From: Pectobacterium polaris | GTDB taxonomy: Bacteria; Pseudomonadota; Gammaproteobacteria; Enterobacterales; Enterobacteriaceae | Assembly: GCF_002307355.1 (NCBI RefSeq) | Contig: NZ_CP017481.1 | Location: 4,092,001-4,156,000 of the forward strand | Direction of reading: 5' to 3' | Length of the DNA stretch: 64,000 bases | Part shown: positions 1 to 12,648 of the stretch, in pieces | How positions within the stretch are numbered: the stretch's first letter is position 1 | Layout: every line of letters starts with the position of its first letter | The notes under the pieces: generated by a model | Told to the model about the DNA's origin: nothing | The model's database searches: none | Seen by the model: only the letters and a program-made list of their open reading frames with translations | Position numbers and translations under genes: made by a program

Positions 1-805
1 CAGTATCTTGGGCATAACGAGCAAATTCACCATGTAACTCAGGCAATAATTTTCCGCCAGCCTGCGTTAACGTTTTCAATGCAGGAAGTTTCATTGTCAT
101 GAAACGCAACTTTTTCAGCATTTCATAGGTATAAGGAACGCCCGCAAGAGAGCTAGCTTCATACTCTTTTATAAAAGACCAGAATTCTCTCTGCATGATG
201 CTACGCGTCGTCAGTAGCAGCGTAGCACCTTGCAACAAATGGCTGTTAATTATCGACATGCCATAAACGTAATTCATTGGCAAATTGAGCACTGGGCGCT
301 CTCGACTGTCGATGGCAAGATACTCGGCAATATTATGCGCATTACTCAAGATATTGCGGTAACTCTGGCGTACAAGACGCGGACTGCCCGTCGAACCAGA
401 TGTCGACACCAATAATGCCAGATCCTGATGCAACGGGTATTGCACTAGCCCCGTCGGCACCAGCTCATAATTTTCTAGACTAAATATGGCATCCTGACAC
501 TGGCCATTTTCACCTTGCGGGCGCCAAAGATAAGCAGGACGGTAGGTGGACAGCAGGCGTTCACAAAGTTCCTTATCCAGATTTTTATCCAGCATGAGAG
601 GAACAATGCCATGGTTTAGAAAACCTACATATCCAATTAACGAGCCAAACGTATTTTCACTGAATAAAAACACCAGAGAGCCAGCCGGAATCTGTGCACT
701 CAACAGTTTTCCCTGAGTGCACAATTCACCATAGCTCAGTTGGCGCCCTTGTTCATCAATGGCAGCCAAAGCCGCTTTATCATGTTGATCCAGATTAAGA
801 AACAT
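1..805 (-). CDS. AMP-dependent acyl ligase, partial (runs off left edge)
   Basis: This is an adenylate-forming enzyme that would activate a carboxylic acid with ATP and probably load it on the nearby acyl carrier protein. The phosphate-binding A3 motif STSGSTGSPR lies at about residues 134-143, and the N-terminal fold around 'LSYGEL' is typical of AMP-binding proteins. About 268 codons are visible; the C-terminal part lies outside the window. I chose the ATG at 805 because the family usually begins there. In-frame ATGs at 850 and 886 are open alternatives, bounded upstream by tandem TGA codons, and no start has a strong ribosome site. It is on the same strand as the sugar-modification genes to its right but separated by a 581-bp gap. 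The role in making the acyl group of a flagellin sugar is inferred from the neighbours and from similar genes in Pseudomonas flagellin glycosylation islands. Confidence 0.8.
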   Translation of the reverse strand, partial: MFLNLDQHDKAALAAIDEQGRQLSYGELCTQGKLLSAQIPAGSLVFLFSENTFGSLIGYVGFLNHGIVPLMLDKNLDKELCERLLSTYRPAYLWRPQGENGQCQDAIFSLENYELVPTGLVQYPLHQDLALLVSTSGSTGSPRLVRQSYRNILSNAHNIAEYLAIDSRERPVLNLPMNYVYGMSIINSHLLQGATLLLTTRSIMQREFWSFIKEYEASSLAGVPYTYEMLKKLRFMTMKLPALKTLTQAGGKLLPELHGEFARYAQDT

Positions 806-1386
806 CACTGCAGTTATCCGTAATGTCGTAGAACTGAATCGACGATTCATCGATCGTCGACCCACACAGTGTGAGTAAATAGCCATAGACGGTAATATAC
901 CGTTGAGTAATGCAGATACTCATCATTCTTTTGTCTTTGTTTTTCGCTTATGAAGCCCTATGCTGCATGTTAACTGTTTGTAAAAGCAAACTGTGTTCCC
1001 GAATAGAACCATCTCTGCACTCGAGTAGTACACCGAGTGCAAGTATAAAGGTGCCATGCACATTGTTTAAAACAATACCAACACCATAAATAATCCAAAT
1101 ATCAAATGCCTTGAGAAACATCGATATCCAATCCAATCCAATCCAATCCAATCCAATCAGGATAGGAATTAATGTTCAAAAAACAGACTTATCAATATCA
1201 GAAATCGAGCCACTCATTTAGTCACAATCAAAAAATAATATAATGCGCCACACAGAACTAGCAGCACATAGTCTTTACTGTAGAAAAGCAGTCTCAATCA
1301 AACTGCACTACCGCGCGAACAAAACAATTCATTTTTGGTGCCCCCAAACGCTGTCACGATATCAGTCAATGATCTGTCTTCTGATG
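806..1386. other. Intergenic gap between reductase and AMP ligase
   Basis: This AT-rich stretch of 581 bp has no convincing gene. It contains the ATCCA tandem repeat at 1126-1158. A minus-strand reading frame (948-1151) starts inside that repeat and resembles nothing I recognise, so it is not called. Any promoter for the ligase should lie here or further upstream in the island. Confidence 0.6.
1126..1158. repeat. Pentanucleotide tandem repeat (ATCCA)6
   Basis: Six perfect ATCCA units (1126-1155) are followed by ATC and then diverge. On the minus strand this reads TGGAT. A five-base unit can expand or contract by slippage and would change the frame of any coding sequence across it, or promoter spacing if noncoding. 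It lies about 240-320 bp upstream of the possible ligase starts. Confidence 0.9.
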
Positions 1387-2127
1387 TCACAAACCTCCAT
1401 CCACTCGAATAACCTGCCCAGTGATATAGCTGGAAAGTTCAGAGGCAAGAAAAACAGCGGCATCAGCAATTTCCATCGGTTGTCCAACCCTGCGTAAATC
1501 AGTCGCGTTTTTTGTGTCTGCCAAAATATGTGCAGGCAAGGTATCCAGCATATCTGTGTCGGTAACACCTGGTGCAATGCAATTCGCTCTAATGCCGAAC
1601 TCACCCATCTCAGCTGCGATAGATTTCGTCATTGCGATCACAGCAGCTTTAGAAGCGCCATAAGCCGATTTACCTGGATTACCATCTAATGCCACTGTAG
1701 AAGCTATGTTAATAATGCTGCCCTGTCTTTGGCGCGCCATAAACTTAGCGATATACTGAGTAAACAAGAAAACAGAGAAAAAATTCACTTCAAACTGCTT
1801 TCTCAGTGCCTCTTCAGTAGTCATTTGGAATAACGAGTTAAGAATGATACCTGCATTATTGACAACAGCATCTATAGGCCGCTTGTCCGCCGCGAGACGT
1901 TTAATAACCAATTTCATAGCTACATAATCCGTCATATCGAAACAAAGTGGCCAAATATTGACGTTATACTTCTCCGCCACTGCTGACAGTTCAGATAACC
2001 ATTCAGCGTCTTCTTCGCGCGCATGAGCGTAAATATTGGCACCATTGGCAGCGAATGCATCAATCATTGCGCGCCCCAATCCACGTCGCGTCCCAGTAAT
2101 TAATACATTTTTGTGTTGTAATAACAT
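1387..2127 (-). CDS. SDR-family (FabG-like) oxidoreductase 1
   Basis: This 246-residue classical short-chain dehydrogenase/reductase resembles 3-oxoacyl-ACP reductase. The nucleotide-binding motif TGTRRGLG is near residue 11, the NNAG motif is present, and the catalytic Ser and YGASK (Tyr-xxx-Lys) are near the centre. It ends in the usual '[10 protein letters not shown]' segment. It is the last gene of a run of minus-strand genes and starts 13 bp after the second reductase. Together with the acyl carrier protein next door it probably reduces a 3-oxoacyl-thioester to the 3-hydroxy form used to decorate an amino sugar. That substrate is inferred; the fold and active site are seen. Confidence 0.85.
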
Positions 2128-2140
2128 AGATTCCTCGTTC

Positions 2141-2884
2141 TCACCCTATACCGCCATCGATACGCACTACTTGCCCCGTGATATGGCTAGCTTTGTCAGA
2201 TGATAAGAAAAGGATCACTTTCGCAACTTCTTCCGCCGTCCCGAGACGTTTAAGGTTACAGCGGGCCATCTGACGTTCTATTACCTCTTGCGCCAAACCT
2301 TCCGTCATTGCCGTTTCTATCACTCCTGGGGCCACAGCGTTAACACGAATTCCTTGCGGCGCCAGTTCTACGGACAACGTTTTAGTCGCAGCAATCAAAG
2401 CTGCTTTGGAAGAGGCATAAGAGAGTTGTCCAGAGTTGCCATCCAGAGCCGAAATACTGGAAATATTAACCACACTACCTTTTTTATTTCTAAGCATTAA
2501 CTTGGTGATATATTGGGTAAAGAACATCTGCGAAAAGAAGTTAATAGCAAACGTCTTTTTCATTTGCTCCATCGTTGCCATATGAAAAAAGGCATCTAGC
2601 GTCACACCTGCAACATTAACCAAAATGTCAATAGGTTTTTTGCTTTTTTGGATCACTCCAGCGCCTTTCTTTATAGCATCTTCATCAAGTAAGTCGAAAT
2701 AGACAGGGAGAATCTCAACACCATACTTATCCGATAACTCAGCAATGTACTGAGTAAATGACTCGTCTTCGGCTTGACAACAGGCGAAAACATTCGCACC
2801 TTGGCTAGCAAATGTTTCCAATGTTGACTTCCCGATGCCTTGTAGACAGCCAGTAATCACTGCGTTTTTCCCTGTCAGAAGCAT
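2141..2884 (-). CDS. SDR-family (FabG-like) oxidoreductase 2
   Basis: This 247-residue SDR is a paralogue of its downstream neighbour. It has TGCLQGIG at about residues 11-18, an NVAG motif (NNAG variant), catalytic Ser, and YASSK. It also ends with '[10 protein letters not shown]'. It begins 9 bp after the acyl carrier protein gene, so the two are probably co-translated. It likely acts on an ACP-bound 3-oxoacyl chain. The reason for two intact reductases is unknown: they may take different substrates, or one may have a sugar or non-ACP substrate. Confidence 0.85.
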
Positions 2885-2893
2885 AACGGTACC

Positions 2894-3130
2894 TTAAATT
2901 TCCACATCGTATTTATTCAGGATCTCTTTGCCTTTCTCATAGGAGGAGAAATCAATAATATCTTCAGTATCCATCATGATATCGAATGTTTCTTCTAGTG
3001 CAACGATCATCGCCATGTGCCCTACTGAATCCCAAGAAGCCGAGTCCTGATACTTGTACTCAGGTAAAGCTTCCTCTGCGACAGAAAAAACCTCAGTAAA
3101 AACATGGTTATACTTTTCTAAATTACTCAT
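2894..3130 (-). CDS. Acyl carrier protein
   Basis: This small acidic protein of 78 residues has the phosphopantetheine attachment motif DSVGH, with Ser about residue 35, followed by an acidic helix typical of ACPs. I start it at the ATG at 3130, which has GAAGGTAA at good spacing upstream; a GTG at 3145 lies inside that ribosome site and is unlikely. It sits between the acyltransferase and the FabG-like reductases. It is therefore a dedicated carrier for the acyl group made by the AMP ligase and reductases, not the housekeeping AcpP. It would need activation by a holo-ACP synthase encoded elsewhere. Confidence 0.88.
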   Translation of the reverse strand: MSNLEKYNHVFTEVFSVAEEALPEYKYQDSASWDSVGHMAMIVALEETFDIMMDTEDIIDFSSYEKGKEILNKYDVEI

Positions 3131-3153
3131 TACTATTACCTTCACTATTAAAA

Positions 3154-3801
3154 TTATTTAAAAACACGGCCGAGATCATTTTTTCTCATTACTCTGGCAG
3201 GATTACCCAACGCAATAACACCACTTTCGATCTCATTAAACACCACGGCTCCCATGCTAATAATAGTATCATGGCCAATCGAAGTGTTTTCCTTGACCGC
3301 CGCGCTCATCCCAACAAATGTTCTTTCACCAATAGTGCAATGCCCTGCCAACGTAACAAAGGTAGATAACACAGCATGCTCACCAATCACGCAATCATGA
3401 CCGACACTGGCATACGGCTGCAAAAATGCATTATCTCTAATAATCACATCGCAGGATACATATACTCCCTGACACAATACACTGCCTTTACCTACCACCG
3501 TACAATCCGACAGATAAACACTGGGATGAATCAGCGTAGCCAGCGTTAACCCGCTAGCTTTAACTTTATCTGCCAAGCTTTCTCTGGCAGAAGGTTCGCC
3601 TACAGCGATAACAACTTCAACATCACAAGCCATACTGATAGATTCAAAATCCCTGACGGCAATGCCTTTAAGCTCACGCCCAGGATTAAAATCATCAATA
3701 AGGACAACTTCATTCCACCGAGACTGATGTGTATTAATGAGTTGCGCCAACATTAAGACTTCTCGACCTAATCCACCTGCGCCATAGATAGCCAGTTTCA
3801 T
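3154..3801 (-). CDS. NeuD/PglD-like hexapeptide sugar N-acyltransferase
   Basis: This 215-residue protein has an N-terminal Rossmann-like segment (GAGGLGRE near residue 8) and a C-terminal left-handed beta-helix of hexapeptide repeats, the layout of PglD and NeuD acyltransferases. The likely catalytic base is His135 in 'SVGHD'. It overlaps the aminotransferase gene by 4 bp (ATGA), so the pair should act in sequence: amination at C4 of a nucleotide-linked keto sugar, then N-acylation. With an ACP next door the acyl donor may be acyl-ACP rather than acetyl-CoA; that is inference. It resembles VioB-type enzymes in viosamine pathways. Confidence 0.85.
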   Translation of the reverse strand: MKLAIYGAGGLGREVLMLAQLINTHQSRWNEVVLIDDFNPGRELKGIAVRDFESISMACDVEVVIAVGEPSARESLADKVKASGLTLATLIHPSVYLSDCTVVGKGSVLCQGVYVSCDVIIRDNAFLQPYASVGHDCVIGEHAVLSTFVTLAGHCTIGERTFVGMSAAVKENTSIGHDTIISMGAVVFNEIESGVIALGNPARVMRKNDLGRVFK

Positions 3802-4955
3802 GATCCAGTTCCCATTGAAGCAATACCCACAGGCGGCTGTACCTGTTCCACTTGTGCAAGGATAATTGCAATAACCCTATCTTGATCTTCTTCATTCAGT
3901 TCAGCATGGATAGGTAGGCAAAGTACTGCATCAGCAACTTTATTAGCATTCAGTAAGTTAGACTCAGCAGCACTGTCTAATCCACGATACATAGAAAACG
4001 CACTAATGAGCGGATAAAAATAACGGCGAGCGAAAATTCCCGCGCCCTTCATCAGATCATAAAGCTCATCACGCGTACATGGGAAGGTTTTCTCAATAAA
4101 CAGAGGGCAGTACGCCTGATTCCAATCAATATTTTCAGGTACTTCGATCAACCGTAGGCCTGGAATGTTTTGTAATGCAGAACGATAACGTTGATAAATA
4201 CTGCGTCGTTTTGCCAACGCATGGTCAATATGTTTTAACTGCAACAAGCCAAAGGCGGCCTGTACTTCATTCATCTTACCATTGATACCAGGAGCTACGA
4301 CGGTTAGCTCATCAGCAAAACCAAAATTCTTTAGATAATCAATACGTTTCTTGGTTTTAGCATCACGGCAAATAATTGCGCCCCCTTCGATGGTATTAAA
4401 TACTTTCGTTGCATGGAAACTGAGGATAGACAAATCGCCATGGTTTAAAACACTACTCCCTTCTTTTTTAACGCCAAAAGCATGGGCAGCATCATAGATT
4501 ACACGTAATCCATAGTTATCAGCCACTTGCTGAATACGCTCGACGTTAGCGGGGATACCATAACAATGCACAGGTAAAATAGCAGAGGTAGCAGGAGTGA
4601 TCGCTTCTTCAATTTTATCTGGGTCAAGGTTACAGGTAACAGGATCGATATCGACAAATACCGGTTTTAAACCATTCCACAACAGACTATGAGACGTTGC
4701 AACAAAGGAATAAGGCGTTGTAATGACTTCACCAGTGATTCGTAGTGTTTGAAGAGCAGTAAGCAGTGCCAATGTGCCATTACTAAATAGGCTCAGGTAT
4801 TCAACACCCAGATATTGCGCCAGTTCCTTTTCCAATTGTTGATGGAATGCACCGTTGTTTGTCAAATATTTGTTCTGCCAAATTTCTTCCAAATATGGCG
4901 TGAACTCATCTAACGGTGGAAGCAATGGGCTTGTTACATATACTGGACTTTTCAT
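3798..4955 (-). CDS. DegT/DnrJ/EryC1 sugar aminotransferase (VioA-like)
   Basis: This PLP-dependent aminotransferase of 385 residues acts on nucleotide-activated keto sugars. The PLP lysine is Lys184 in 'HATKVFNT', and the cofactor aspartate is Asp155 in 'YDAAHAFG'. Length and motifs fit the VioA/WecE/PglE group, which makes 4-amino-4,6-dideoxyhexoses from a 4-keto sugar. It is followed by, and overlaps, the acyltransferase gene. No nucleotidyltransferase or dehydratase gene is visible, so the dTDP-4-keto-6-deoxyglucose precursor would come from rml-type genes elsewhere. The exact sugar (viosamine or thomosamine) cannot be read from sequence. Confidence 0.88.
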   Translation of the reverse strand: MKSPVYVTSPLLPPLDEFTPYLEEIWQNKYLTNNGAFHQQLEKELAQYLGVEYLSLFSNGTLALLTALQTLRITGEVITTPYSFVATSHSLLWNGLKPVFVDIDPVTCNLDPDKIEEAITPATSAILPVHCYGIPANVERIQQVADNYGLRVIYDAAHAFGVKKEGSSVLNHGDLSILSFHATKVFNTIEGGAIICRDAKTKKRIDYLKNFGFADELTVVAPGINGKMNEVQAAFGLLQLKHIDHALAKRRSIYQRYRSALQNIPGLRLIEVPENIDWNQAYCPLFIEKTFPCTRDELYDLMKGAGIFARRYFYPLISAFSMYRGLDSAAESNLLNANKVADAVLCLPIHAELNEEDQDRVIAIILAQVEQVQPPVGIASMGTGS

Positions 4956-5067
4956 TATCGTTCTCGCAAAGATTAATAGTCATAGCACTGAGACAAACAA
5001 CCAATCAGCCAGGTAAAACATAATCCGACGAATAAAGAGCACAGCTGCTGCCCTGTGCCCGCATCAC

Positions 5068-8000
5068 TCATACAATATCGTGTTCAATAGCAAGGCTTGT
5101 CACAGCCTCTCCTGCGCAATAGCGCTGCCAAACTATCCGCAAAGCACGCTCAAAGTAGGTTGCTGGTGTTATTTTTTCATTGCCGTCTATCGTTAGCTGA
5201 GCACGCAAATTAGAACGAACTAACGCGAGTTCGTCTAAACGCTGAGTCCAGTTGGTTGACCGCCGGATGTAATCCTCTTCGGAGGTTGCAATGAACTCGG
5301 ATAACCCAGCTGCACTCAATGTTGCAACGCCTTGACGGGTAGCAAGTGTTTTACCCGATATCGTCAGCGTAGGAACACCCATCCACAAAGCATAGTTTGT
5401 CGTCGTTCCGCCAGTATAAGGAAAGGTATCCAACAGAAGATCGATCTCGTTGTGCATCGCTAAATATCCCGTTACATTAGTTCTTCCACGGAAGATTAAT
5501 TGCTCAGCTAGCACCCCCATAGACACCATCTTATTACGAATATTATCGATAACCTGTTGACCTGAAAGTGCGCCAATAATCATCTTGCTGGTAGGTAATT
5601 CCGTCAAAATTTTTGACCATACCGTTAAAACCTGATCATTGATTTTTTTCGGGCGATTAAAACTGGCAAATGTAAAGTAGCCGTTATCAAGAGCCGGCAG
5701 TTTCCCGACATCAGGGCTGTCTGTGATTGGTTTGAATTGCTGAGTGAATGGCACATAAAGTGCTTTTTCAATAAACTGGGTTTCGAAAATTTCAGGCTGC
5801 GGAGCAAGATTAATACTCATAAAATAATCCATGGCCTGTAACCCCGTTGTCCCCGGATAGCCGATCCAGCTAATCTGGATTGGTGCTGGCTTCAACGCAA
5901 ACATAGGTAAACGGTTATACGCAGTATGGCCCGAAAGATCGAATAAGATATCTATCTTGTCTTCACCAATCAGCTTTGCCAGATCAACATCGCTCTTATC
6001 TCTTACAAAATGCCAAGCCGCAGTTTTTTCTCTTAAACGCTGGGTGGCTTCATCATTCAATGTTGATGTTGCATAGACATATAATGAAAAACAGTCAAGA
6101 TTAATTGAATTCCAAACTGGTTCAAGAAAATTAGTCACCGGATGTAGCCCTAAATCTCCAGAGACAAAACCGATACGTAAAACCCGATTAGGATTTTTAT
6201 CATACTGGCGCTCAGGGAGTTGTAGCTTCAATTTCGCTACTTTAGCCTCAGTACGCAGACCAAACTCGCGGTGTTCCTGGAAAAGGGTTTCTGGTGAAAT
6301 CGTACTACTATGCGTTAAGCCAAAGAGAAAGTTACTATGCAGATTCGAAGCGTTAGGAGAAAGCTCCATAATACGCCGATAATAATTATTTGCTTCGTCC
6401 TGTTGAGAATTTGACTCATAAATAGCCGCCATGCTATTCAATATAGATACATCGTTTTCATTCAGGCCAATAGCTTTTTTTCCGCAAAATTCCGCTTGTT
6501 CTAAGTTATAGTAACTTAAATGCACAACAGCTAAAAGATTCCAGGCCTGTGCGTTTGCTGGATCGCATCGGATAATTTTTCGTACCAAATTCAATGTTTC
6601 GCGCTTTAGCCCTGCGTCCTGGCTTTGGGTTGCCAGATCGTAATAGACACTCCAACTGAACAAATGTCTGGAGATAATTTGTACTAATGCTAAGGAAGCG
6701 CCTTCTGCGTCCCCTGTTTTTCTTAATGTGTCGGCGAGTAGGTTCCAGTTTTCAATATTCTCAGGATCTTTTTGTGTCAATCTCTCTGCAATATACCTTG
6801 CCTGAATGAAGTCACCATTGGAAATTAACCAAGCAATCTCCTTCACCGTTTTATCAGCAATTTTAATCGCTTTTACCGAATTCCCATTTGTGAGTAAGGG
6901 TGATTTGTACACACCACCAGTTTTAGGATCGCTGACATAAAACACTAATGCACCGATATACGACATAATCTCCTTTATGCCGGAACTTGCTAGTAATGCA
7001 TCCTGGAAGTAGCGGTGCCATGCACGAACCCTCCCCTGTAAAACACCGTGCTGATGCAAACGCCGCATAACAGGGAAGTAATTTTCATCTTGCTGACAAC
7101 CCCACAAATCCCAAGAAGCCAGAGATATCTTTTCAGCATCCGACAACTCTAGCGATACGGGTTCATGCCAGAAGTTAAAGTTGTCTTTTACCTTTAGGAC
7201 ACCAGGCAACAGGCAGAGCGCAGGCAATGAACTCTTCTGATAAACACATTCACCAAGTCTAAAATGCAACTCACCTAACCCTTTGACAAACAAAGCTCTC
7301 AATGCATTCTGCAAGTTAACTCGTTCATCTGTTTCAGGTTTTTCTGGTTCACGAGTGTTAAATAAAAGTTGCTGAAAAGACTGAGCTAATGGCCAAGATT
7401 CACCTAACGTAGTTAACACACGCTGCGTCAGAGGATGGCTGGTTGTAACCATGACGCCAGAGGCAGAACGCCATCCGTTAGTGCTTGTCCCCTGCTCTGT
7501 ATAAAACGGAAGGAAACTGCCAGCCCAGTGAAAATCGGCCAACCGAGACCAATCCGGCTCAGGTAAGACTTCTTCTGAACGTTCTTGTGCCACAAGTAAA
7601 GTAAATCTACTTTCTCTTCCAACAGCAAAATCAAGATATTGTTGCTTCAACACTTTGTGCATCGACGCACAAATGACCTGATGCATGCTAGAAACATTTT
7701 CACCGTAATGTTCAGCTAATTCTGTATGTGGCTGAATATCGCCGACATAAGTCAGGCCAGCTCCAGTGGCTAACGTGTTAAAATCTAGCAGATAGCATGG
7801 CTCATTCAGGCCCTGTAGATAATTCAGCGCTAGCTGAACATCACTCTGCTGTTCAGCCTGTTCAACCCATTTCCGTAGCGCCTTTTCCTGAGCATTATTG
7901 GGGGACAGCCCTAGTGACAGATAAGTCAGCATAGCTCTGGCACTTTCTTGCTGTTGTTCCACTGTTTCGGCCAGGCTTGTATGAAGGATTAATGCATCCT

Positions 8001-8502
8001 TCAATACCTCCGCTGTTTTCCCGCCGGGATACGTAGCGTATTTGAAGCTTATCGCACCAACAGGAGAAAGATGCTTCTGGCAAAATTGCAGTAATGCAAT
8101 TCGAGCTTCACCGCTCACCAAGCCAAAAATGCCATGCACAATAATATAATCGAACTGCCCTAACTCGCTTTCCAGCAGGGTGTTTAAATCAGTCGCCGCA
8201 AGTTGGAGATTCTCAACGCCGAGTTCACTCAGCAGTTGTTGCCCTTCTTCAACCTTTTCCACGTCCAAATCGATGCCAATAGACGAGCTCTGAGGATAGG
8301 CTAGTGCAAAAGGAAGAAGATTCTCCCCAGCCATACACCCAAGCTCTAGCACCCTTGCATTTTCAGGTGCAGCACATTTTACGCCGTGTAACCACGCAAC
8401 GGCTTGTAGATGTGCCGGCGAGGTATAAGGAAGGATAGTAGAAACAGCAGCACTATTGGCAGATGAAGGAATACCAACAGACGAGGGCGCATTACGAACC
8501 AT
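5068..8502 (-). CDS. Large methyltransferase-TPR-GT41 flagellin glycosyltransferase
   Basis: This 1144-residue multidomain protein is encoded directly downstream of fliC. Residues about 30-190 form a SAM-dependent methyltransferase (VLELGCMAGE at 51-60). Residues about 210-520 resemble the regulatory and winged-helix parts that follow such methyltransferases. Residues about 555-715 are TPR repeats. Residues about 775-1120 match the catalytic region of O-GlcNAc-transferase-like GT41 enzymes: 'RIGFVSGDLGLHPV' with a likely catalytic His787, the 'PAPIQISWIGYPGTTG' block, 'FNRPKKI' and 'DTFPYTGGTTTN'. GT41 enzymes transfer sugars to Ser/Thr or Asn of proteins in the cytoplasm. Position points to FliC as substrate. 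The fused methyltransferase could O-methylate the glycan. There is a 112-bp gap before the aminotransferase gene. Confidence 0.88.
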   Translation of the reverse strand: MVRNAPSSVGIPSSANSAAVSTILPYTSPAHLQAVAWLHGVKCAAPENARVLELGCMAGENLLPFALAYPQSSSIGIDLDVEKVEEGQQLLSELGVENLQLAATDLNTLLESELGQFDYIIVHGIFGLVSGEARIALLQFCQKHLSPVGAISFKYATYPGGKTAEVLKDALILHTSLAETVEQQQESARAMLTYLSLGLSPNNAQEKALRKWVEQAEQQSDVQLALNYLQGLNEPCYLLDFNTLATGAGLTYVGDIQPHTELAEHYGENVSSMHQVICASMHKVLKQQYLDFAVGRESRFTLLVAQERSEEVLPEPDWSRLADFHWAGSFLPFYTEQGTSTNGWRSASGVMVTTSHPLTQRVLTTLGESWPLAQSFQQLLFNTREPEKPETDERVNLQNALRALFVKGLGELHFRLGECVYQKSSLPALCLLPGVLKVKDNFNFWHEPVSLELSDAEKISLASWDLWGCQQDENYFPVMRRLHQHGVLQGRVRAWHRYFQDALLASSGIKEIMSYIGALVFYVSDPKTGGVYKSPLLTNGNSVKAIKIADKTVKEIAWLISNGDFIQARYIAERLTQKDPENIENWNLLADTLRKTGDAEGASLALVQIISRHLFSWSVYYDLATQSQDAGLKRETLNLVRKIIRCDPANAQAWNLLAVVHLSYYNLEQAEFCGKKAIGLNENDVSILNSMAAIYESNSQQDEANNYYRRIMELSPNASNLHSNFLFGLTHSSTISPETLFQEHREFGLRTEAKVAKLKLQLPERQYDKNPNRVLRIGFVSGDLGLHPVTNFLEPVWNSINLDCFSLYVYATSTLNDEATQRLREKTAAWHFVRDKSDVDLAKLIGEDKIDILFDLSGHTAYNRLPMFALKPAPIQISWIGYPGTTGLQAMDYFMSINLAPQPEIFETQFIEKALYVPFTQQFKPITDSPDVGKLPALDNGYFTFASFNRPKKINDQVLTVWSKILTELPTSKMIIGALSGQQVIDNIRNKMVSMGVLAEQLIFRGRTNVTGYLAMHNEIDLLLDTFPYTGGTTTNYALWMGVPTLTISGKTLATRQGVATLSAAGLSEFIATSEEDYIRRSTNWTQRLDELALVRSNLRAQLTIDGNEKITPATYFERALRIVWQRYCAGEAVTSLAIEHDIV

Positions 8503-8621
8503 TAGGGAGCAGACCTATCTCTATTCACAATAACTTATTAACCTAACAAAAATCAGGAATAACAATCGAAAGAACAGCACTGCCTTCGCAGGGCAATTAT
8601 CAGCATCACTGCAATACATAT

Positions 8622-8646
8622 AAAAAAACCAGCCCGAGGGCTGGTT
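8622..8646 (-). terminator. Rho-independent terminator of fliC
   Basis: Read on the minus strand, AACCAGCCC and GGGCTGGTT form a 9-bp stem with a two-base loop, followed by a run of T. It begins about 40 bp after the fliC stop and separates fliC from the glycosylation genes, which therefore need read-through or their own promoter. Confidence 0.85.
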
Positions 8647-8686
8647 CAGCATTATCATTGTAATGATAAAGGTGTATGTCGAAAAA

Positions 8687-9514
8687 TTAACGCAGCAGAG
8701 ACAACACGTTTTGTGGAACCTGGTTAGCCTGAGACAATACAGAAGTACCAGCCTGTTGCAGGATATTAGCCTTGCTCATATTGGACACTTCAGTTGCATA
8801 GTCAGCATCTTCGATACGACCACGAGCAGCAGACAGGTTGTTAACCGTGTTGTTCAGGTTAGTGATGGTAGATTCAAAACGGTTCTGAATCGCACCCAAG
8901 TTACTACGAGCAGTGTCAACCAATTTCAACGCAGCATCAATTGAGCTGATTGATGCTGTTGCAGCAGCAGCGGTTGAAACATCCAGGCCAGTAACACCCA
9001 GATCGCCAGAAGAAGAACCAATCAGCGCGGTTGAACCGATAGTGATGGCATCGTCCGCTTCGGTATTTGCACCAACCTGAATAGAAAGGTTAGCATCGCC
9101 TTTCAGCAGATCGATACCGTTGAATTTAGCGGTATTGGTGATACGGTCGATTTCAGAAACACGCTGAGAGATTTCAAGTGCGATTGATTCACGGTTTTCA
9201 GTGGTGTTGGTGTCACTTGCAGCCTGAACTGACAGCTCACGAATACGCTGCAAGTTGTTGTTGATTTCGTTCAGGTTAGTTTCAGCAGTCTGAACCAGAG
9301 AAATACCGTCATTGGCGTTACGAGAAGCCTGAGTCAGACCTTTGATCTGTGCAGTCATACCGTTTGCAATCGCCTGACCAGCAGCATCGTCTTTAGCGCT
9401 GTTGATACGCAGACCAGAAGACAGACGCTCGATAGCAGTACCCAGAGAAGACTGAGATTTGCTCAGGTTGTTCTGAGTCAGCAGAGACATTACGTTAGTG
9501 TTAATACCGGCCAT
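8687..9514 (-). CDS. fliC: Flagellin
   Basis: This is the filament subunit, exported by the flagellar type III system. The conserved N-terminal D0/D1 region starts MAGINTNVMSLL, and the C-terminal D1/D0 region ends 'QVPQNVLSLLR'. At 275 residues it is short: the central variable D2/D3 domains of E. coli-type flagellins are almost absent, leaving a small Ala/Ser/Thr/Gly-rich linker around residues 160-195. That compact surface, many hydroxyl residues and the adjacent glycosyltransferase fit a glycosylated filament. The gene is monocistronic, with a sigma-28 promoter upstream and a terminator downstream. Confidence 0.97.
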   Translation of the reverse strand: MAGINTNVMSLLTQNNLSKSQSSLGTAIERLSSGLRINSAKDDAAGQAIANGMTAQIKGLTQASRNANDGISLVQTAETNLNEINNNLQRIRELSVQAASDTNTTENRESIALEISQRVSEIDRITNTAKFNGIDLLKGDANLSIQVGANTEADDAITIGSTALIGSSSGDLGVTGLDVSTAAAATASISSIDAALKLVDTARSNLGAIQNRFESTITNLNNTVNNLSAARGRIEDADYATEVSNMSKANILQQAGTSVLSQANQVPQNVLSLLR

Positions 9515-9584
9515 AATAGAATTCCTTAATCGATGAGGTGTAAGTTTCGGGTTAGACCCACGGGTTCATCCCCGTCGCTAACAT

Positions 9585-9611
9585 TTATCGGAACGCTTTT
9601 CAGAAGCTTTA
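9585..9611 (-). promoter_or_regulatory. Sigma-28 (FliA) promoter of fliC
   Basis: On the minus strand the -35 is TAAAGCTT (9604-9611), the spacer is exactly 11 bp, and the -10 is TCCGATAA (9585-9592). This is close to the consensus TAAAGTTT-N11-GCCGATAA and lies about 70 bp upstream of the fliC start. Confidence 0.88.
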
Positions 9612-9771
9612 ATTTTTTTTGCCACATTTATTTTTAAACAGGTTCTCATCTTTTAATAAGTGCCCAGGCCATCTTGTGATTTTTCTTCATCCACAATCGG
9701 AATTACGGCATGATGAGGATGCCCCACCAAGGGACGGTATGGCACAGTAAAAGCTACGTCAGCTTACCTGC

Positions 9772-9798
9772 TAAACTTATTACTGATACTGCCGATAA
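9772..9798 (+). promoter_or_regulatory. Sigma-28 promoter of fliDST
   Basis: The -35 is TAAACTTA (9772-9779), the spacer 11 bp, and the -10 a perfect GCCGATAA (9791-9798). It lies 42 bp upstream of the fliD start and would place fliDST in the late class. Confidence 0.9.
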
Positions 9799-9840
9799 CT
9801 CTCACATAGACAGCTAAACTCGGAATAAAAGGATTCGATC

Positions 9841-11229
9841 ATGGCAAGCATTTCCTCATTAGGTGTAGGCTCAGGTCTGGATTTATCAACATTGTTAACT
9901 AATTTAAGGACTGCTGAAAACCAGCGCCTAACACCAATTACCAGTCAGCAAAGTAGTTACAAAGCTCAACTTACGGGTGTTAGCTCACTCAAAAGTGCCC
10001 TCGACAAATTCAATACCGCTAACAACACCTTAGCCAAGTCCGAGTCTTTTGGTATCGTGACGGGTTCTATTGATGGCATTACTAATACCAAGGTCTCCAG
10101 CACCAATAAGGCTTTCACTGCTACAACAGCCAGCAAGTCAGTTGCAGGCAGCTATAGCGTAGAAGTAAAACAATTAGCGCAAGCACATTCGATTACGTCT
10201 TCGGTTCAAACCAGTGCAACAGCCGCATTAAGCGCAACGGATACTACGCTTAAGATTGCTCAAGCTGACGGAAAATCACTGACCATTGACATTAAAGGAG
10301 GAGAAACCTCACTCAATGGTGTCCGTGATGCGATAAACAAAGCGAATGGTGGAGTGACCGCCAGCGTAGTGAAGGCGAAAGATAACGAGTACTATTTGAT
10401 GTTAACCGCTAAAAATAGCGGTGAAAAAGGTGAGATTACATTAACTGATAGCGGCAATGTTTTGGGTTCAACAACCGAGAAAGTCGCGGCACAAAACTCA
10501 GTAATTATTGCAAACGGTATCGAAATTGAACGCCAAAGTAATACGATCGATGATGCATTCGAAGGTGTCACACTAACGTTGCAAGCAAAAACAGAAACAG
10601 GCAAACCTGAAACCTTGACCATCGATCAAGATATTACTGGGATGAAAGACGCGGTTAAGGCATGGGTTGATGCCTATAATGCTCTACAAGACACCATTAT
10701 TTCACAAACCAAATACACCGCCGTTGACGCAGGGGAAGCTCAGTCCACTAGCAACGGAGCCCTGATAGGCGACTCAACCGTCCGTGGTATCCAGGATAAA
10801 CTCAAATCCCAGTTGACGACCGTTCAGAGCTCAAGCGGCGAATTTCGCATTCTTGCTGATTTAGGCATTACACAAAACTTTAAGACAGGCAAGCTTGAAA
10901 TAAACAATACGGTTCTCGACAAGGCGCTGAAAGAAGAGCCAGGAAAAGTGCAAGAATTTTTCGTAGGGAACAATGATAAAACCGGTTTTGCAACACAGAC
11001 CCGGAGTTATTTGAAAGAAGTTCTCGATACGAAAGAGGGAACGATTAAGACTAAAGAAGATAGTATAAACAGTACATTGAAATCGTTAGATACTCAGTAC
11101 AAACGAGTCAGTGACGGTATCGAACAGACAATTGCTCGCTACCAGAAGCAGTTTACTGACTTGGATAAAGCCATGTCTAATATGAGCAGCACCGTCAACC
11201 AGTTGACCAGCATGTTCTCTAAACTCTAA
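9841..11229 (+). CDS. fliD: Filament cap protein
   Basis: FliD (HAP2) forms the cap that folds flagellin at the filament tip. The 462-residue protein begins with the conserved 'SSLGVGSGLDLSTLL' segment and ends in a coiled coil with the usual C-terminal 'LTSMFSKL'. Its length matches the enterobacterial family. It is transcribed divergently from fliC and is followed 30 bp later by fliS, its export-chaperone partner operon. Confidence 0.96.
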   Translation: MASISSLGVGSGLDLSTLLTNLRTAENQRLTPITSQQSSYKAQLTGVSSLKSALDKFNTANNTLAKSESFGIVTGSIDGITNTKVSSTNKAFTATTASKSVAGSYSVEVKQLAQAHSITSSVQTSATAALSATDTTLKIAQADGKSLTIDIKGGETSLNGVRDAINKANGGVTASVVKAKDNEYYLMLTAKNSGEKGEITLTDSGNVLGSTTEKVAAQNSVIIANGIEIERQSNTIDDAFEGVTLTLQAKTETGKPETLTIDQDITGMKDAVKAWVDAYNALQDTIISQTKYTAVDAGEAQSTSNGALIGDSTVRGIQDKLKSQLTTVQSSSGEFRILADLGITQNFKTGKLEINNTVLDKALKEEPGKVQEFFVGNNDKTGFATQTRSYLKEVLDTKEGTIKTKEDSINSTLKSLDTQYKRVSDGIEQTIARYQKQFTDLDKAMSNMSSTVNQLTSMFSKL

Positions 11230-11259
11230 ATTCTCGATGAAAGACATATAGGTAATCTG

Positions 11260-11670
11260 ATGTACAACATGAAAGGCAGCCAGGCCTACGCTCAGGTAGG
11301 CCTTGAAAGCAGTGTGATGAGCGCAAGCCCGCACCAGCTTATCGTCATGCTGTTTGATGGTGCGCGTAGTGCAATGGTGCGCGCACGCATCCTCATGGAG
11401 CAAGGTGATATACCAGGTAAAGGCATGGCGTTATCTAAAGCAATTAATATTATCAATAACGGACTAAAAGCGGGATTAGACATGGAAAGAGGGGGGGAAC
11501 TCGTTGAAAATCTGTCCGCCCTGTATGACTACATGTCTCAACGTTTGTTGATTGCTAATCTACATAACGATCCCAAAGCGATAGAAGAAGTCGAAGTATT
11601 ACTGGAAAATATCGCTGATGCCTGGCGGCAAATCGGCCCTAATTACAAACCAGAGCAGGAAGTACGTTAA
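11260..11670 (+). CDS. fliS: Flagellin export chaperone
   Basis: FliS binds the C-terminal D0 helix of flagellin and prevents early polymerisation. The 136-residue protein shows the family signatures 'YAQVGLESSVMSASPHQLI' and 'MLFDGAR', and it is all-helical. It lies between fliD and fliT in the conserved order and overlaps fliT by one base (TAATG). Confidence 0.97.
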   Translation: MYNMKGSQAYAQVGLESSVMSASPHQLIVMLFDGARSAMVRARILMEQGDIPGKGMALSKAINIINNGLKAGLDMERGGELVENLSALYDYMSQRLLIANLHNDPKAIEEVEVLLENIADAWRQIGPNYKPEQEVR

Positions 11671-12050
11671 TGGCCTCCCCCCATCGGCTTCTAAAAGATT
11701 ACCAACAGCTTTTGTCTCTGAGTCAAAAAATTCTTCATTTGGCCGTCAGCGGCCAATGGGATACGTTGGTTGAGCAAGAGATTGTTTATGTTCAGTCCGT
11801 TGAAGGCTTAGTTAACACGCCAATTCCTGATGAAATTGACAGTATGATGCGTTTGCATCTGCGACAAATTTTGCAGGAAGTGATGGATAATGAAGCAAAA
11901 GTAAAACAACTTCTGCAGAAGCGAATGGACGAATTAAGTTCGTTAATGGGGCAATCACTGAAGCAAAAGTCAATTAATACGACTTATAGCGAATTTGCAG
12001 GGCAGCGACTACTACCTGGTGAACCCTTTCCTGACGAAACACACTCATAA
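11670..12050 (+). CDS. fliT: FliD chaperone and FlhDC antagonist
   Basis: FliT is the export chaperone of the cap protein FliD, and in enterobacteria it also binds FlhC to dampen class II expression. This 126-residue helical protein has the family layout, with a conserved N-terminal 'LLKDYQQLLSLSQKIL'. It overlaps fliS by one base and ends just before a terminator. Assignment rests on position and overall resemblance, since FliT sequences vary. Confidence 0.92.
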   Translation: MASPHRLLKDYQQLLSLSQKILHLAVSGQWDTLVEQEIVYVQSVEGLVNTPIPDEIDSMMRLHLRQILQEVMDNEAKVKQLLQKRMDELSSLMGQSLKQKSINTTYSEFAGQRLLPGEPFPDETHS

Positions 12051-12082
12051 CGTACTATAGATTAAGGTTATGCCGTCTTCAG

Positions 12083-12115
12083 CGCGTCTTTGGTTTTATA
12101 CGAGACGCGTTTTTT
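12083..12115 (+). terminator. Terminator of fliDST
   Basis: CGCGTCT (12083-12089) pairs with AGACGCG (12103-12109) and is followed by a run of six T, 33 bp after the fliT stop. Confidence 0.82.
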
Positions 12116-12252
12116 ATCCACAAACGGTGCTGGTGCTTTTACTCTGCATGCTCAGAGTATCTGGCATAACAAAATCAGTGCGCGTTAAGAATTTGAAGAT
12201 TGGAGGGTTTGAAGACAAGGAGTAAACAGGCGGGTACTCAGCACAAATAAAG

Positions 12253-12296
12253 ATTGTGCGTAATTTCATTGCATTAACAGTGAGATTACGCACAAT
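12253..12296. repeat. Perfect 12-bp inverted repeat between fliT and fliE
   Basis: ATTGTGCGTAAT (12253-12264) and ATTACGCACAAT (12285-12296) are perfect reverse complements around a 20-base loop. It lies 37 bp beyond the fliE stop, so on the minus strand it could end fliE transcription, although there is no strong T-run. Confidence 0.8.
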
Positions 12297-12333
12297 GGCT
12301 TTACTGGTTGCCGATTGATGCCATTAAACGACA

Positions 12334-12648
12334 TCAAACAGACATATTCATCACTTCCTGATACGCAGATACCAGCTTATTACGCACCTGAATGCCCATC
12401 TGCATTGAAATGGATGATTTCTGTAAATCCACCATCACATCATTCAATGCTACGCCTGGCACACCCAAGGTAAATTTTTCAGCCTGCGTACGAGCCGTCT
12501 GCTGTGTGTCGCTGATCTTATCGATCGCGGCTTTCAGCTCACTGGCAAAACCAGGCTCTACCGATGGTCTGGCTATTGGCGTGTCAGCAGCCTGCAGAGC
12601 TTTGACCTGCATTTGCTGTAAAACACCATCAATACCTTGAACTGACAT
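12334..12648 (-). CDS. fliE: Flagellar hook-basal body protein FliE
   Basis: FliE joins the MS ring to the proximal rod and is needed early for type III export. The 104-residue length and the C-terminal block '[20 protein letters not shown]' are characteristic. It is a single-gene unit divergent from fliF, as in other enterobacteria. The shared 260-bp upstream region should hold both class II promoters; I could not place them with confidence. Confidence 0.96.

Follow-up and report, generated by a model that had tools for sequence, protein, structure and literature searches.

Flagellin glycosylation island of Pectobacterium polaris with an ACP-ligase-LuxE-LuxC acyl block exchanged between sister species

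Enterobacterial flagellin glycosylation islands were surveyed by De Maayer and Cowan in 2016 (PMC4875605), and the available text of this survey describes GT41 island kinds with fatty-acid-like genes, for example type 12, and lists Pectobacterium as a type 12 genus. The island of Dickeya zeae EC2, in the accessible part of its description, has almost the same gene order from fliA to fliC as P. polaris. The viosamine island of Pseudomonas syringae pv. tabaci (PMC3927599, excerpted text) contains vioA, vioB, acp and vioR; counterparts are present here, a putative one in the case of vioA, along with a large transferase. The Group II polar flagellin island of Aeromonas (PMC7874193) has the same set of ACP, FabG-like, AMP ligase, LuxE and LuxC genes; its sugar is pseudaminic acid and its glycosyltransferases are separate, and the sections available mention no GT41 fusion. 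In their accessible text, the published island papers regard the block as a set of fatty-acid genes and assign no structure to the acyl group. A search of open-licence literature for the chemistry of the cassette brought up, besides these papers, the Dickeya genome papers PMC4522980 and PMC6206727.

The P. polaris locus is a Pectobacterium flagellin glycosylation island of this already published kind. It is inserted between fliC and fliA and combines glycosyltransferases with sugar-biosynthesis genes (GT41, PF00535, DegT and NeuD), and flagellin would be the glycan carrier. With the islands of the survey (PMC4875605, available text) it shares the fliC-fliA site, a GT41 enzyme with a methyltransferase domain, an aminotransferase, NeuD, ACP, LuxE, LuxC, a ligase and FabG. 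Unlike them, it has no transketolases, contains two SDRs and displays block exchange relative to a sister species; its GT41 gene stands beside a PF00535 GT2-TPR gene, whereas a single GT family per strain is described there. Compared with D. zeae EC2, again from the accessible description, P. polaris is without tktA-tktB and fkbM, NeuD replaces maa, and 581 bp separate the ligase from the second fabG. Relative to the P. syringae island, as far as the excerpt of PMC3927599 goes, it lacks the ketosynthase VioS and has ligase-LuxE-LuxC instead, and its methyltransferase is fused to the transferase, the family of VioT being left outside this comparison.

Within the 64,000-nucleotide stretch that was analysed (the window), the island lies on the minus strand behind fliC (8687-9514), which encodes a 275-aa flagellin (PF00669/PF00700), the presumed substrate. 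All of the genes named by the original prediction are present where it had placed them, according to the ORF list and Pfam/NCBIfam searches, each with a family-level match, weak in the case of the ACP. The amino-sugar branch, ACP-based acyl supply, N-acyltransferase and GT41 transferase, recognised at family level, support its proposal of a flagellin modification island. The genes are indeed packed behind fliC on one strand, and the window edge cuts the island, which runs on for about 6 kb to fliA. Beyond the edge lie the remainder of the ligase gene, then LuxE, LuxC, a 471-aa protein of no recognised class and the GT2-TPR protein (PF00535), followed by fliA. With its long family-level matches, strand coherence and same place in relatives, the gene block is far beyond chance. 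Terminator-like hairpins, recognised by consensus only, occur on the minus strand after fliC (8626-8647) and between the GT41 gene and the aminotransferase (5037-5060); 13 sites of this type were counted in all, where shuffled sequence gave 7.9 (sd 3.6). Promoter-like sites in the window showed no excess (19 against 19.1 in shuffles), and Rfam and tRNA scans of the window gave no matches.

The sugar branch begins with a DegT-family aminotransferase (3798-4955; presumed PLP lysine K184). Its closest solved chain is 2po3 (E 3.3e-62), which we take to be DesI, the maker of dTDP-viosamine, and DesI is also its best NCBIfam model (296.7 bits, below the cut-off of 650). The enzyme for the 4-keto-6-deoxy donor, RmlB, has its gene elsewhere in the genome (525 bits, over its cut-off). 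The next gene (3154-3801) encodes a NeuD/VioB/PglD-like left-handed beta-helix N-acyltransferase (TIGR03570, 172.6 bits, cut-off 160.8), the solved relatives of which include a pilin glycosylation protein, perosamine N-acetyltransferase and VioB. It is 54-63% identical to the block-linked NeuDs of Erwinia, Kosakonia, Lelliottia, a further genome (G097) and Pectobacterium loci L147 and L148, and 51% and 46% identical to two block-free Pectobacterium NeuDs. Other block-linked NeuDs (L075, 51%; L149, 45%; other phyla, 27-49%) are no closer than these two, and the NeuD tree is poorly resolved. From sequence comparison, NeuD seems to travel with the exchangeable block.

The ACP gene (2894-3130) encodes 78 aa from ATG 3130, a more likely start than GTG 3145, which gives the 83-aa form of the ORF list (2894-3145). 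Its profile matches are weak (0.015 and 0.041 with Pfam PP-binding families, 2.3e-4 with NCBIfam NF002148); all 60 aligned relatives nevertheless retain D39-S40, numbered in the 83-aa form. Two FabG-like reductases of PF13561 (adh_short_C2) follow, SDR 1 (2141-2884) and SDR 2 (1387-2127; TIGR01830 217 bits, below the cut-off of 297.75), and both have the triad S143/Y156/K160, conserved in each of 60 aligned relatives. The AMP-forming acyl ligase (PF00501) occupies 2-805 and continues past the window at its 3' end (in full, G000:C1:4091393-4092805); its start is more likely ATG 805 than the longer-form start at 886, as suggested by the similarity to relative L147, which stops there. Lys484, numbered in the longer form, is kept in all 71 aligned relatives. 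The nearest solved relatives of the ligase include oxalate-, succinylbenzoate- and malonyl-CoA ligases; ranked by sequence similarity only, oxalate- and succinylbenzoate-CoA ligases fill the first five places, closely followed by luciferases and NRPS domains. LuxC (PF05893, 92 bits) matches the solved LuxC-type reductase 7xc6 in a profile search (2.6e-10), and LuxE matches PF04443 with 199 bits. LuxC C237 (75/75 aligned relatives) and LuxE C352 (76/76), presumably the catalytic cysteines, are invariant, and the two proteins are fused in five loci. LuxE relatives number in the thousands in a protein search.

The ACP, both SDRs, NeuD, ligase, LuxE and LuxC together form an exchanged block of 6.94 kb, which covers 1-3970 in the window, including the last 173 nt of the aminotransferase gene (3798-3970), and runs on to window position -2972 (G000:C1:4089028). 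The sister-species locus L150 has no blastn similarity over this interval, while the flanks are 88-89% identical and the edges are sharp; FliC (93%), GT41 (93%), the 471-aa protein (90%) and GT2 (79%) are retained as similar proteins, but the ACP, both SDRs, ligase, LuxE and LuxC are absent. As the acyl block has been swapped in nature and the transferases retained, the flagellins of the two sister species are predicted to differ by a single mass, with a smaller acyl group in the block-free one. The exchange also supports probable horizontal transfer. At 1-9 kb the G+C content is 0.40-0.46, and the later part of the window has mostly 0.44-0.53, with other low stretches. Between the ligase and SDR 2 lies a 581-bp stretch without a recognised gene (806-1386), carrying an ATCCA tandem repeat at 1126-1160. 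In relatives L041, L066, L074, L075 and L095 this site is occupied by tktA-tktB; tblastn with TktA and TktB of L041 gave nothing significant in it, the best matches being TktA at E 0.12 (25% across 52 residues, directly after SDR 2) and TktB at E 1.2. A recent tkt loss in this strain is not supported, because L147 and L148 are also tkt-free.

ACP, ligase, LuxE and LuxC recur together in several phyla. In the 80 best-matching loci, taken from at least 517 relatives and many of them metagenome bins whose phylum labels may hold errors, tblastn matched the ligase in 80 loci (one at only 23% identity), LuxC in 79, ACP in 71 and the transketolase pair in 39; the single locus without LuxC is a contig ending just after LuxE. 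Ketosynthase matches occurred in seven of these 80 loci, with FabH queries only. Frequent partners of the block are transketolase, acetolactate-synthase-like, NeuB-like and lactate/malate-dehydrogenase-like genes. An aminotransferase or NeuD match was present in 46 of the best 80, although identity was below 30% for 20 of 35 aminotransferase and 9 of 25 NeuD best matches. The block is not flagellin-specific, because in this sample it rarely lies beside flagellin outside Enterobacterales (flagellar matches in 2 of 74 loci). Plasmid sequences gave 14 records with LuxE, all below 60% identity, and the ligase-LuxE-LuxC DNA had no match in Escherichia coli genomes.

Gene content, catalytic residues and the block exchange can be read directly from the DNA; substrates, order of steps, acyl structure and linkage to FliC we infer as follows. 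The block would make a short polar hydroxyacyl group, via an aldehyde, for the 4-amino-4,6-dideoxy sugar of the flagellin island, a proposal for which the chances appear evenly balanced. The DegT enzyme would aminate dTDP-4-keto-6-deoxyglucose from RmlB at C4 to a viosamine-type sugar. The AMP ligase may load a short acid, probably with a second carboxyl group, onto the private ACP; the C-terminal cysteine of LuxE would take the activated carboxyl and pass it to the LuxC cysteine, and LuxC would reduce it to the aldehyde. The FabG-like reductases could then yield a hydroxyacyl group of the 4-hydroxybutanoyl or dihydroxybutanoyl class, which the NeuD-like enzyme would transfer to the sugar. The GT41 half of the giant enzyme would build the glycan on Ser/Thr of FliC before export, possibly together with the 471-aa protein and the GT2-TPR protein, and the methyltransferase half may methylate glycan or protein. 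A polar rather than fatty group is favoured because ketosynthases are rare (7 of the best 80 of at least 517 loci), the partner genes are of polar type and the ligase is akin to oxalate- and succinylbenzoate-CoA ligases. In Aeromonas AH-3, where the island holds the same five genes, the flagellin bears a pseudaminic acid derivative of 376.14 Da and an unassigned 102-Da unit, and the available text reports no mutant tying these masses to the five genes (PMC7874193). A C4H6O3 group computes to 376.148 and 102.032; O-methylglyceroyl also fits the Aeromonas masses.

The giant enzyme (5068-8502, 1144 aa; Glyco_transf_41 and MethyTransf_Reg) consists of a PKMT-like methyltransferase (aa 19-490), TPR repeats (aa about 550-730) and a SPINDLY-like GT41 domain to aa 1132. 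The first half has the PKMT fold over most of its length, and alignment places the AdoMet contacts at D78 and H123; the second has the GT41 fold with TPR and the catalytic lysine of SPINDLY/OGT. The enzyme carries the complete fold of a rickettsial-type lysine methyltransferase in front of an O-glycosyltransferase of SPINDLY type, and, unlike Rickettsia PKMT1/2 and SPINDLY, whose folds its halves match, it unites both in one chain. The O-methylation suggested as possible would depend on a methyltransferase domain that in structure comes closest to a protein lysine methyltransferase, and its target may be glycan or protein. The PKMT-like half could act on flagellin lysines while the SPINDLY-like half glycosylates Ser/Thr, but such double modification is doubtful. 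FliC residues 141-190 contain 14 S/T and no lysine, and lysine methylation is kept as a rival only because the variable region of the flagellin is lysine-free; the whole protein has only seven lysines, 9 of 47 relatives of the enzyme have a residue other than His at position 123, and VioM represents sugar methylation in such islands, according to the available part of the P. syringae report (PMC3927599).

The resemblance to the Pseudomonas viosamine island, on which the original prediction had drawn, extends at family level to the aminotransferase, putatively of VioA type, the VioB-like acyltransferase, the ACP and the VioR-like, FabG-like reductases, but not to VioS, in whose place stand the AMP ligase, LuxE and LuxC. 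No ketosynthase family was found among the island ORFs scanned, nor by tblastn with FabF/FabB/FabH in the island's own stretch. The analogy of a 3-hydroxyacyl group is thus not supported in its original form by the excerpted description of the P. syringae island (PMC3927599): the window edge had hidden LuxE and LuxC, and the acyl chemistry therefore likely changes. It is unlikely, though consistent with the gene set common to both islands (aminotransferase, NeuD, ACP and SDR; PMC3927599, same excerpt), that 3-hydroxybutanoyl is made from acetoacetyl-ACP by the FabG-like reductases as in P. syringae, with LuxE, LuxC and the ligase only salvaging or loading acids. The FabG-like pair is compatible with 3-hydroxyacyl supply from housekeeping FabH/FabF, both encoded in the genome, and Qui4N with 3-hydroxybutanoyl computes to 231.111, 231 being the loss given for the vioM mutant sugar in the available text of PMC3927599. 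Against this, the island is without a VioS-like ketosynthase, and the LuxE and LuxC cysteines, kept in every aligned relative, would be left unexplained. 3- and 4-Hydroxybutanoyl have the same mass and are indistinguishable by mass alone. With dihydroxybutanoyl, Qui4N computes to 247.106 and with acetyl to 187.084, and O-methylation would add 14.016 to each of these residue masses.

That LuxE-LuxC and the ligase yield a fatty chain or fatty aldehyde, and hence a liposugar, is very unlikely, even though the genes are annotated as fatty-acid genes and a liposugar component is suggested in the accessible text of De Maayer and Cowan 2016 (PMC4875605) and of the Aeromonas (PMC7874193) and D. zeae EC2 papers. 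Ketosynthase matches are missing from 73 of the best 80 of at least 517 loci, and tblastn found none in 14 Pectobacterium regions and the island's own stretch; LuxE reaches 73 bits where the bioluminescence, long-chain LuxE equivalog NF052244 has a cut-off of 550, and the enzymes often encoded beside the block come from families that use small polar substrates. Chance proximity to fliC of an island mainly decorating LPS, capsule or another target is most improbable: the two flagellar matches in 74 loci outside Enterobacterales would agree with it, but fliA/fliC matches lie in the fetched stretch of five of six loci titled Enterobacterales (the sixth is on a contig that stops 1.6 kb past LuxE) and of all four Pectobacterium loci with the block, and deletions of such island genes altered flagellin glycans in other genera (PMC3927599, available text).

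Returning to the short polar hydroxyacyl group, it is possible, and put forward tentatively, that ACP-ligase-LuxE-LuxC forms a portable cross-phylum cassette for short polyhydroxyacyl groups. Glycan N-acylation would then draw on carbohydrate-type reactions of carrier-bound groups instead of ketosynthase chemistry. The carboxyl would become an aldehyde, be lengthened by transketolase (C2) or NeuB-like/TPP enzymes and then be reduced, and a swap of the cassette would give flagellin a different outer chemistry with unchanged glycosyltransferases. If true, this would account for two features of Aeromonas flagellin, the 376-Da sugar and the 102-Da unit left unassigned. Flagellin glycans set the recognition of flagella by plants and other hosts, and since many gut bacteria hold the same block outside flagellin islands, a solved structure would help to read many glycan clusters. 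The tetronate genes of Vibrio cholerae O1 offer a parallel. In spirochaetes, LuxE was found in 9 of 145 genomes of the family of a Spirochaetales bin (L123), putative kin of Treponema; five of six fetched loci bear LuxE without a ligase match (LuxC was called in three), and the sixth, L213, holds the usual block with transketolase. The flagellin sugar of Treponema denticola reportedly carries a methoxy-trihydroxyhexanoyl group, and the formula of such a sugar computes to 450.185.

The P. polaris genome is a single contig of 4.83 Mb. Behind fliC, and in order from it, the minus strand encodes a 1144-aa methyltransferase-TPR-GT41 protein, which shares 94% identity with one from Pectobacterium parvum, then a DegT aminotransferase and a NeuD-like acyltransferase, followed by an ACP, two SDRs of the FabG type and an AMP ligase whose gene is truncated by the window edge; the one-strand packing of the original prediction is thereby borne out. 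Beyond the edge lie the remaining part of the ligase gene, then LuxE, LuxC and a 471-aa protein that matches nothing in Pfam or NCBIfam, followed by a plus-strand GT2-TPR gene and fliA. The window thus contains the fliC-proximal part of an island that extends, complete, as far as fliA. The predicted role in flagellin glycosylation is well supported and very probably correct. Among named contigs, the closest one carrying this cassette is from Pectobacterium sp. CFBP8739 (LuxE 93%, FliA 99%).

Islands of this kind are already known, and the present one is a variant: nearly the same islands are published for Enterobacteriaceae and for Dickeya zeae EC2. The survey of 2,000 Enterobacteriaceae genomes by De Maayer and Cowan (PMC4875605), in its available part, reports fliC-fliA glycosylation islands in 307. 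Most of their GT41 enzymes carry methyltransferase domains, some of the islands also hold genes for ACP, LuxE, LuxC, ligase and FabG, and type 12 includes Pectobacterium. That portion of the survey describes one glycosyltransferase family per strain, whereas here a PF00535 gene occurs alongside GT41. The Dickeya zeae EC2 island, as outlined in a section of PMC7575072, has a near-identical gene order plus the split transketolase pair tktA-tktB, which is missing from the P. polaris island. At the position of this pair in related islands, window 806-1386 contains 581 bp of non-coding DNA with ATCCA tandem repeats, in which no significant match to a transketolase remnant was found. The tkt genes are also absent from two other Pectobacterium islands (L147 and L148).

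A LuxE profile scan of public genomes revealed at least 517 relatives, of which the best 80 loci were analysed; this choice favours close relatives, and the counts hold for that set. In tblastn searches of these 80, the ligase was found in 80 (once at just 23% identity), LuxC in 79, ACP in 71, the transketolase pair in 39, the aminotransferase in 35 (20 below 30% identity) and NeuD in 25 (nine below 30%). Titles and tree labels place the loci in Pseudomonadota, Bacillota, Spirochaetales, Synergistota, Elusimicrobiota and others, many being metagenome bins. Flagellar genes lay within the fetched stretch at seven of the 80, namely five of the six titled as Enterobacterales genera and two Roseburia. 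At five loci (L042:16597-18918, L060:7773-10250, L091, L098 and L142), three of them among the best 80 and two outside, a single protein of 770-825 aa combines LuxE with LuxC. In five spirochaete-family genomes (L208-L212), LuxE, with LuxC called in three, lies near a 432-439-aa ORF, which in L209 resembles butyryl/succinyl-CoA transferase; a ligase search of these five gave no match.

Alignments of ORFs within 6.5 kb of LuxE, with fusions and fragments excluded by length, revealed invariant LuxC C237 (75/75), LuxE C352 (76/76), ligase K484 (71/71), ACP S40 (60/60) and SDR S143/Y156/K160 (60/60), residues which we take, from their families, to be catalytic. The LuxC profile matches the long-chain acyl-protein thioester reductase 7xc6. 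Together, the invariant residues and this match are most naturally read as LuxE and LuxC reducing an acid to an aldehyde. The nearest solved structures to the ligase family are oxalate- and succinylbenzoate-CoA ligases, a weak hint that its substrates may be dicarboxylic acids.

A local route to a fatty or 3-hydroxyacyl group needs a ketosynthase. Matches to one occurred in seven of the best 80 of at least 517 loci, all seven from FabH queries, and in one (L044) of 34 further regions. Frequent variable partners within 6.5 kb are instead the TktB transketolase cluster (35 loci), thioesterase (24), lactate/malate-dehydrogenase-like (17), FabA/FabZ-like (14), NeuB-like (13) and acetolactate-synthase-like (11) proteins. 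Elsewhere in the P. polaris genome, distant from the island, there is a second ORF of the FabH type, next to one resembling an NAD-epimerase (C1:969963-971923). The original prediction drew a parallel with Pseudomonas gene sets that make modified viosamine; a viosamine-like sugar is moderately probable, and the acyl route differs from that of Pseudomonas. The best reading is a polar hydroxyacyl group made through LuxE and LuxC, though we consider it an even call; should it prove right, this chemistry of the cassette is the point of interest. Because the island lacks transketolases and has two reductases, the P. polaris product would be expected to be a C4 hydroxy- or dihydroxyacyl group. Polar acyl groups are described on flagellin in the accessible parts of two reports, 3-hydroxybutanoyl on viosamine (PMC3927599) and di-O-methylglyceroyl on pseudaminic acid (PMC3068675). 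The Aeromonas AH-3 island shares with the P. polaris cassette the five genes for ACP, a FabG-like protein, AMP ligase, LuxE and LuxC, and its flagellin bears a linking sugar of 376.14 Da plus an unexplained 102-Da unit, according to an excerpt of PMC7874193. One C4H6O3 acyl, the formula also of O-methylglyceroyl, fits both masses (computed 376.148 and 102.032), which is arithmetic and not proof.

Among 25 Pectobacterium genomes, LuxE is present in four and the full-length aminotransferase (at least 72% identity) in 15, plus one split copy in G313; 14 of the 15 other aminotransferase regions were compared, that of G302 being left out. In the block-free sister species (L150), FliC and GT41 are each 93%, the 471-aa protein 90% and GT2-TPR 79% identical to their P. 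polaris counterparts, and between the aminotransferase (80%) and the 471-aa protein lies just one NeuD, 51% identical to that of P. polaris. Blastn against L150 gave 89.2% identity over window 3971-12495 and 88.1% over -4459 to -2973 (negative positions lie beyond the left edge), with no similarity from -2972 to 3970. One block edge falls within the aminotransferase gene and the other 23 bp before the 471-aa gene start; such sharp edges, with no blastn similarity between them, indicate that LuxC, LuxE, the ligase, both SDRs, ACP and NeuD were gained or lost as a single unit. The glycosyltransferase genes, at the same identity level as the flanks, were retained across the exchange; if both islands work, these transferases must tolerate different N-acyl groups. 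VioT of P. syringae is characterised, in the available portion of PMC3927599, as strict on the N-acyl group.

The block varies further within the genus: L147 and L148 carry one SDR, and in a fourth island (L149:7591-13262) the space between ACP and ligase is occupied by genes resembling those for FabZ, acetolactate synthase and NeuB and by a metallo-hydrolase gene. A reverse transcriptase with a group II intron maturase domain lies between the 471-aa and GT2-TPR genes of the sister species (L150:11272-12660). The G313 island looks decayed, its aminotransferase being broken by a stop (L160, G313:C1:566369-567458) and few long ORFs being left. A second, longer flagellin with an open frame of about 505 aa occurs near fliA (CFBP8739, L064 at about 15.0-16.5 kb; G312:C3:100825), and the second flagellin encoded by G300 and G310 measures about 506-508 aa.
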